Shown in pieces: positions 54,401 through 58,867 of a stretch of DNA of 64,000 nucleotides. Source of the stretch: Tubulanus polymorphus (taxonomy: Eukaryota > Nemertea > Palaeonemertea > Tubulaniformes > Tubulanidae). Location: the NCBI RefSeq assembly GCF_964204645.1, contig NC_134026.1:17750650-17814649 (forward strand). The letters run 5' to 3'. The notes beneath the pieces were generated by a model. It did no database searches. It was not told the DNA's origin and was given only the letters and a program-made list of their open reading frames with translations. A program made the translations under genes and the position numbers. The stretch's first letter is position 1; the number at the start of each line of letters is the position of its first letter.

Positions 54401-57400
54401 TTAAGAATGGGAACGGCCTCTTCTGAATAGAAAAACATGATATTATGTACCTCTTATTATATTTATAAATATCATAGTGTTTGAATATCACTGTTATTCC
54501 AACTATCAGTAACCATGGGATTAATTGGGATTAATTCTCAGCGTCAGAATACGTACATTGAACGGTAGGCTACCACCACGATACGATATCACCAATAAAG
54601 ATAGATCGTTTTATTCAATTTTACCAGAGTTGTTAATTGGAGGAACATCATTATTAAGTACGCCGAGAACAACCATGTTGTATCATCAATCAGTTGATTG
54701 ACAGTTTATTGTAAAATTTTACGGTTAGGCTATATTCTACATTAAGTTTTCACTTTAAGACGCCCTGCCTGCCTCCTGCGCACTCACGAGGCGGTAGCAG
54801 CCCCTTACGCACTCGGCAGATTGATTCGCTTTGTAATGCACGCTGGGGAAAATAACTTTTATCTTTTCCACATGTTGAACACCACAACAGTGATTAAATT
54901 TACACATTGTTTGTCGCAATTGGTTATTTGCCACTATCAATGTTGAGTGACAAGTGGGTTCGAGTCCTGCTGACTGCTTACAGTGTGCGGGCAACACTTC
55001 AGAGGCCGTCCCGTCGTGAGGTTAAATGAACAATCCAATAGGGTTAAAAACCAAGGTCCAAGCGACATAAACAAACAAAAAGACAAACAAGCAATCATCA
55101 GCCTGCTTTAGTAGTGACACCAACGCCGGCGTTGCTCTCTGCGACGTTTTGATACGTACATTTGTCCGGGTGATGCCCCTTAGTATTTTGCATTCAGAAA
55201 AATCGTTCTGTTTTTGTTTTCATTATTCAGCAATAGGGCCTAACAGTTCATGCAAGGAAAACCACCGTCAGTCGAGATTTCCCTTACAGGTGTACGTTAA
55301 ATACGAATCTAATATAGGCGAAAGGGCCGAAATTGTTGTATTAAATGGGTTTTCAAATCTTGGTATACAAATCTTGATTGATATAAATCTCTTAACTGGG
55401 TGGGACATGATGGAAAACATCAGAATAAACTAGTTTCATTTTTAACAAAATCGCGTAAATGAGGTTTAACAATACAAATAGCCTATAGGCTAAATCGTTC
55501 GGCAGAAAAATGAAATTCATTCAATTCTTAAGTCTGTGGTCTTCCCGATCAACATCGTCATAGAACATTTTCTGGCAGATGTAAAGCATTAACCACTTAA
55601 TACCTTACCACAGTGTAATCAACCAATGCTTCAAGGCCCATGGGGCTCGTGTTTTAGTTCGTGTATCGTGAGATGATATTTTGTTTCGTAGATCACAAAA
55701 GAAGAGTTCACCAATTATTACGCGGGGGTGAGCGCATCCATCGATCAAGATGCCTACTTTGATTTGATGATGCGAACTGCTTGGAAAATCTAGGTATCCA
55801 ATCGAATGGTGGTAGTTCATTATTAGATATATTTCTAATGAGATACATATATATATATATATATAGCTTATATCTCCATAGCATGCTTTCAATAATCTTT
55901 CAGCCTATGTAAAATGACAGTGGAACTTCATTATAATGATCTCAGATAGAATCATTCACCAAATAAAACCAGAATTATATCCCAAACAGGCAAATTCTAA
56001 TAATTCCACTAAAAAATGATTGGCTTATAACATATTTTCTGGTACTCTGATGGTTGTTGCAACGAGGTTCCACTGTAACATAAATTACAATTACCGGTAG
56101 TCATAAATTGATGGGGTACTGGTTATATGCAACTGTTTCAATCAGTGATTCCACTCATGGCAGGGGAGTGTTGGCTAGTAGATGGATAATTTTCAATGCT
56201 TCTATTTCTATCTGTATTTCAATTAAAATTCGTGCAACTTTTCTTACCAAATCAAATCAACTGCCAGTAATAACAATGAAAGCAAAAAACCAGAAATTTA
56301 TGTATTTCTATGAAATATATAAATTTACTGATTTTACTAGCATGTTACTGACAGTTCATTACATCAACTCATCAGACCTATGACTTGGAATTTAGTGACA
56401 TATCTTGTAAATCTACCAATTATGCCTGATAGCCTATGTCATTCAGATATTGCTGCCTAAAGTGGCTGGAAACTGAAATTTGGCTAGATAGTTTATTTGG
56501 ATGGAGGAAAGATATTATTATTCTGTCTTACCAAGTATAAGGTAGCTTGAACTGGATAATGTTTGTACTTTTCCATATAGCTTCATTATCATCAATATCA
56601 CAGATAGATGGAGGCCTGCGAGAGGTCCATTGGTGTCCGGCTAATTTGTTGATTTATTGGTTAAGGTGACAGGGTTTTTATGAAAGCTCTCTCACCCAGA
56701 TTATGAATATATCGCTGTCCAAGTGTAGTCTATTGGGATAAAACATCAAATCTGATAAGTATCAAGTACAGTAGACTCCACTTACCGTTAAGCCTGTTGC
56801 CTCTGAACATTTTGTGGCCTGGACAAAATATCTAAAATTTCCTAACCGCAATATATGCTTTGATAACCCAACATGGCTGAGACTGCCCCATGAATCGCTT
56901 TCCCCATAGAAAATTTATCGATCCAGCGAGATCTGAAGTGAGCGAGGTTTAGTGGGTTAGCTATTCTCCCTAGACCATTGACAGAATCGTCTCAGTAAAA
57001 TCATCTTTGCACCACTAATTTACCAAGAATTTGTTGCTTTTATTACTGCGTGTAGATCACAAGGGAAGAATTTCTAAATTATTACGCCGGTGTCAGCGCA
57101 TCCATTGATCATGACGCTTATTTCGATCTAATGATGCGAACTGCTTACGGGTTATCAGGTTAGATGATCCCTAAAAGGTAATAATAGATTGAATTCGCTC
57201 GAATTGTTTTTATGTTAGATAACCGTTTACTAACTCCGCTTAAACAATGGCGCTTTCTTTGTTCATTAAGCTTTCACCTATATTACTTAAATGTTACCGT
57301 AATACTTGAAAATAGTATCAGTAAGGGCTTGGTAAGTGCTACACTGATTTTATTTTATGATGCGCTATCAATGGATTCCTGACAATTGCATTTTAAATTA

Positions 57401-58867: not shown

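Follow-up and report, generated by a model that had tools for sequence, protein, structure and literature searches.

Three tandem candidate last exons of a ribbon-worm CAPSL gene that would exchange part of the fourth EF-hand

Can a single gene of a ribbon worm complete its EF-hand protein in three different ways? The question is raised by a window of 64,000 nucleotides, the whole stretch of DNA analysed here, which comes from Tubulanus polymorphus (C2:17750650-17814649) and in which a sequence-only reading had placed a calcyphosin-like (CAPSL) gene with three alternative last exons. The gene lies on the plus strand. The coding part of exon 1 (36455-36591) runs from the ATG, which begins database protein P0001, to a phase 2 donor, GTTTGT; exon 2 (37468-37645; acceptor CAG, donor GTGAGT) encodes the first EF-hand pair; and exon 3 (50692-50901; acceptor CAG) encodes EF3 and positions 1-7 of the EF4 loop, ending in phase 0 with ...DKDGQ at 50901, directly before the donor GTAGTG. 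When these were spliced to the first of the last exons (36455-36591 + 37468-37645 + 50692-50901 + 55692-55793), the resulting protein of 208 residues was 100% identical to P0001, which NCBI lists as 'calcyphosin-like protein isoform X2 [Tubulanus polymorphus]'. The product is similar to CAPSL over its full length and has the same EF-hand layout.

The three last exons, stops included, are 4a at 55692-55793 (W type, the exon present in RefSeq isoform X2), 4b at 57056-57163 (Y type) and 4c at 58766-58867 (divergent, with the loop sequence IHRSE); they encode 33, 35 and 33 residues respectively. All are on the plus strand at the positions first proposed, and each has an AG acceptor, enters in phase 0 and ends at its own stop. 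As had been read from the letters, loop positions 9-11 are TKE in 4a, TRE in 4b and HRS in 4c, and the C-termini are AWKI, AYGLSG and AWNL. The proposed tandem duplication of a terminal exon is thus borne out by homologous exons that follow one another in the same phase with intact frames.

We then considered what an exchange of these exons would do to the protein. Exon 3 leaves the EF4 loop open, as claimed, and exon 4 supplies positions 8-12. According to an AlphaFold prediction for isoform a (mean pLDDT 84.6), exon 4a spans the exit helix (178-190) and a further, C-terminal helix (195-206). The alternative exons therefore encode part of an EF-hand, namely loop positions 8-12 and the exit helix, and to this extent the earlier description of a swapped half of EF-hand 4 stands; it has to be widened, as on this model the predicted exchange takes in the C-terminal helix as well. 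EF4 itself appears to be non-canonical. Loop position 1, encoded in exon 3, is Pro in the Tubulanus protein, and among 165 distinct family loops this position is Pro or Ser in 147, while position 12 is Glu in all 165, E12 being kept in Tubulanus. Because most family loops have Pro or Ser at position 1, calcium binding by EF4 is uncertain, and this weakens the step from exon choice to the tuning of a calcium response. If any form differs in that response, it is most likely to be 4c: no other family protein retrieved has its H at loop position 9 or its S at loop position 11, and these two residues, like L at segment position 26, are absent from all 209 distinct family segments. Exon 4c nevertheless keeps every column that is invariant in that set. 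Exon 4b has a rarer Tyr (32/209 distinct segments) and a longer tail.

Comparison of the copies speaks to their age and constraint. Over 31 aligned codons, 4a and 4b have 16 identical codons, 11 with synonymous and four with nonsynonymous differences, in keeping with the proposal that their differences are mainly synonymous; the corresponding synonymous and nonsynonymous counts are 14 and eight for 4a versus 4c, and 17 and eight for 4b versus 4c. Nei-Gojobori (NG86) estimates of pS and pN were 0.74 and 0.08 (4a/4b), 0.94 and 0.20 (4a/4c) and 1.12 and 0.21 (4b/4c), so that synonymous divergence ranges from 0.74 up to saturation, with pN at 0.08-0.21 across the three pairs. Nonsynonymous changes made up 6 of 20 for 4a/4b (P = 2e-6), 15 of 32 for 4a/4c (2e-5) and 16 of 37 for 4b/4c (1e-6), where about 80% would be expected in the absence of constraint. 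In neutral simulation (20,000 runs at each of four distances), no run at d of 0.5, 1 or 2 retained 23 or more of the 31 residues with the frame still open; at d of 0.3, 0.4% of runs did. The protein-level selection that had been proposed for 4a and 4b is therefore seen in all three pairs, as low pN and a deficit of nonsynonymous change.

The exon flanks, compared among the copies, revealed no homology, and only a few acceptor bases of 4a and 4b are alike at matching places. One other match, of 66% between the flanks of 4a and those of 4c, lies at unequal offsets; an identical stretch in the 4a and 4b flanks is nothing more than the overlap of the two extracted regions. A recent segmental duplication or an assembly artefact was rejected, the copies being alike at only 56-73 of 93 nucleotides and their flanks non-homologous. 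Near-saturated pS, low pN and the lack of flanking homology together indicate that the copies are old and that selection on the protein has maintained them through most of their existence, though one may have been lost recently. Exon 4a shares 23 of 31 residues with 4c and 26 of 31 with the last exon of a CAPSL paralog, P0080. That 4c is farther from 4a than P0080 is fits an old duplication, but may instead reflect rate.

We conclude that 4a, 4b and 4c are old tandem copies of one CAPSL gene's last exon and that they likely act as alternative last exons. Splicing would connect the donor at 50901 to one of the three acceptors; translation would then end at the stop of the exon chosen, and that exon would probably bring a poly(A) site of its own. 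Every form would retain EF1-EF3 and the entering half of EF4; the exchange would take in loop positions 8-12 and both following helices, the exit helix and the C-terminal one. Two observations count slightly against this conclusion: no protein with 4b or 4c appeared among the matches listed, and a donor-like GTATCC follows 4a.

The duplicated ends had been described as something not known for calcyphosine genes, and here database proteins told otherwise. From three listings (best 120 of 612, 120 of 123 and 120 of 1845 matches) we took 241 proteins and searched them by script for pairs alike before the exon 3/4 boundary and different after it, in a database clustered at 90%, which may hide isoforms. 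At least 20 pairs were found, 13 within one species, in eight species, and seven across species, which were not counted. The eight are two molluscs, Mya arenaria and Biomphalaria glabrata, and six fishes, Heterodontus francisci, Amia ocellicauda, Anguilla anguilla, Astyanax mexicanus, Triplophysa rosa and Betta splendens. In these species the paired proteins, most of them predicted models by their labels, agree fully over the 140 residues that precede the boundary and diverge in exon 4. The six vertebrate pairs fall into two types, sharing 29.1 of 33 residues across species within a type versus 26.2 between types. This is the best of 32 labellings; as the labels were assigned by similarity, the figure is descriptive. 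For Mya, Biomphalaria and Tubulanus, sorted into W and Y types, the corresponding values were 27.2 and 26.2, a difference too small to judge.

Could the alternative last exons then be one ancestral feature of lophotrochozoans or bilaterians, with 4a and 4b descended from the W and Y pair of molluscs? This reading concerns age and is compatible with the alternative use of the three exons; we entertain it as a tentative possibility. Mya and Biomphalaria each have a W form and a Y form at the same boundary, and identity is the higher within types, although the W/Y labelling is the best of merely four possible ones. An exon tree of 33 columns, built from 4a, 4b, 4c and 50 of the 241 proteins chosen by name, had two of 50 inner branches starred. 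In it 4a and the bivalve Sinanodonta form a group (96/80, from a bootstrap that had not settled), and a clade uniting 4b with ten Y exons of molluscs was not rejected (p-AU 0.20). Against common descent with the mollusc pair, holding 4a and 4b together gave a likelihood 4.75 above that of the free tree found (p-AU 0.635), a clade of 4a, 4b and 4c was likewise not rejected (p-AU 0.29), and many Y-type segments are cnidarian, where no pair was seen. None of nine AU tests on the exon tree rejected a grouping; a tenth grouping (vertebrate M) needed no test. Dating the duplication from exon trees therefore failed, as 33 columns cannot date it. A bolder scheme, which we consider doubtful, is that the switch has existed since the bilaterian or at least the lophotrochozoan ancestor, that animals with a single last exon lost one type while Tubulanus expanded to three, and that ciliated cell types thereby receive different EF4 and C-terminal modules of one axonemal calcium protein.

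Three models of one CAPSL gene of the ctenophore Mnemiopsis leidyi (P0064, P0094 and P0113) differ at the second EF-hand: there are two alternative versions of this hand, and one model has both in tandem. They look as if this gene had alternative exons at another EF-hand.

If only 4a, or 4a and one other copy, were used in Tubulanus, what remains would be formerly used exons now in decay. We think this unlikely, and the evidence that bears on it is of several kinds. Among the matches listed, 4a alone is tied to a named isoform: no Tubulanus protein with the 4b or 4c form appeared (best 120 of 612; 120 of 123), and the best Tubulanus match listed for a 4c query (best 120 of 123) was P0001, which carries 4a. 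A further RefSeq isoform is suggested by the name 'isoform X2' and by the two sequences that make up the P0001 cluster. The three residues that 4c shares with no family segment could mark early decay. On the other hand, 4b and 4c retain open frames, acceptors, E12 and the family-invariant columns, and the nonsynonymous deficit is strong in every pair. Acceptor pyrimidine counts are 11/20 for 4a, 13 for 4b and 14 for 4c; that of 4c equals those of exons 2 and 3, which argues against its decay, and the weak tract is that of 4a, which 26% of 473 nearby AGs match or exceed when YAG is required. Candidate poly(A) signals are weak, as the decay of some copies would allow: AATAAA at 55962-55967 (plus strand), 169 nt past the 4a stop, and ATTAAA at 57397-57402 (plus strand), 234 nt past the 4b stop, are not above chance; the sole candidate within 1.5 kb of 4c is an ATTAAA 1,084 nt away; and the density of poly(A) hexamers after 4a, 4b and 4c is no higher than background. 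The motif [AG]GGT[AG]AG has no match after 4a or 4b up to the next copy. The weak donor-like GTATCC lies directly after the 4a stop, and 4a might also be spliced onward through it.

A genome-wide protein search gave 15 matches from 53/53 scored candidates, in the exons of the CAPSL gene, in P0080 and in pieces on C4 and C6; the exon-4-like ones were 4a, 4b and 4c, one in P0080 and one each on C4 and C6. The paralog P0080 (C2:17716914-17722896, minus strand) lies head-to-head with the CAPSL gene, some 64 kb upstream of it, and the search found one last exon in it. The intron of the CAPSL gene between EF4 loop positions 7 and 8 is present in P0080 at the same place and in the same phase, and by alignment at the same place in the C6 paralog but not in the C4 paralog. 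Although such paralogs exist, one of them close by, it is highly improbable that 4b and 4c are what is left of whole genes copied in tandem and not last exons of the CAPSL gene, since the genome-wide search found no second set of exons 1-3 between or after the last exons, leaving exon 3 of the CAPSL gene as the only visible partner of 4b and 4c, and since P0080 lies on the other strand with its own last exon.

If 4a, 4b and 4c are indeed alternative last exons, how unusual would they be? The best match in kind is provided by exons 37a and 37b (EFa/EFb) of CaV2 channels, which PMC7235277 describes as tandem homologous exons of about 100 nt that swap the loop and F helix of an EF-hand-like domain, as well as residues beyond, with a shared E helix; the two exon types are conserved across paralogs. 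Those exons lie within a large channel, whereas the CAPSL exons are terminal, three in number and provided with their own stops, in a protein of 208 residues. Next best are exons 19a and 19b of alpha-actinin-1, alternative exons that alter one EF-hand; according to PMC4435478, forms containing 19a bind calcium (about 45-55 uM) and the form with 19b alone does not. A brain form of alpha-actinin-1 contains both exons, whereas a CAPSL protein can have only one last exon, because each copy ends with a stop codon. Drosophila pip has tandem homologous terminal exons that are used exclusively (PMC9013439), but these form eight repeated clusters, discussed under UTR duplications, and the CAPSL copies are single coding exons. 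Closest in family are the mollusc and fish CAPSL pairs, which have the same exon 3/4 boundary and 23-30 of 33 residues common to both forms; they comprise two forms per species, known from protein models, and Tubulanus has three last exons. The Tubulanus gene would thus combine an EF-hand switch with tandem terminal exons, in terminal position and in three copies.

An article on exons coding for calcium sites (PMC9177970) names actinins, P/Q channels and OGDH as cases in the part of its main text available, which contains no word starting with CAPS or calcyphosin. The available main text of PMC11392532, on CAPSL disease variants, contains none of the terms 'isoform', 'exon' or 'EF-hand', and no description of CAPSL last-exon isoforms was found in the literature as judged by titles and abstract openings. 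The switch may therefore still be undescribed in print. As its kind is already known and related models are in databases, we regard its novelty as modest, and it is probably older and wider than first thought.

The nearest folds are a chain named Calcyphosin-like protein (11yj, one entry of 40 chains, known here by chain name and copy number alone), calcyphosin (3e3r) and EF-hand proteins from the doublet microtubules of Tetrahymena and of trypanosomatids. In the echiuran Urechis, Capsl is among the top hub genes proposed as ciliogenesis candidates (PMC10380512), and in human fallopian-tube cilia CAPSL is listed among the calcium-linked proteins found (PMC13096173). Because of these two reports and the axonemal solved relatives, we place the CAPSL switch, presumptively, in motile cilia. 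As the nearest solved relatives include axonemal doublet-microtubule proteins, its most likely purpose would be to equip ciliated cells of different kinds, or sperm, with CAPSL forms that differ in the EF3-EF4 lobe or in their C-terminal contact. If true, a calcium protein linked to cilia would have a splice switch within one of its EF-hands, with gene models that show it in a shark, in bony fishes, in molluscs and in a ribbon worm. CAPSL would then make it possible to test directly whether motile cilia differ between cells in calcium-sensing parts that come from one gene.

The window also contains several repeats. Two retroelement copies, similar by translation and perhaps DIRS-like, occupy 183-3534 (minus strand) and 45730-49991 (plus strand); the first has Pfam matches to RVT_1 and RNase H, the second has a broken RT frame and sits in CAPSL intron 2, and no Pfam match to a recombinase was seen. 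Three arrays with a 154-base period (18455-19054, 27553-28155 and 53134-53709) have units that resemble one another as members of one dispersed repeat family would; the third array lies within the CAPSL intron that separates exon 3 from 4a. Finally, an AGC array at 7624-7815 (64 copies, 95% matches) has open frames for poly-Gln and poly-Ser in the forward direction and for poly-Cys and poly-Ala in reverse.
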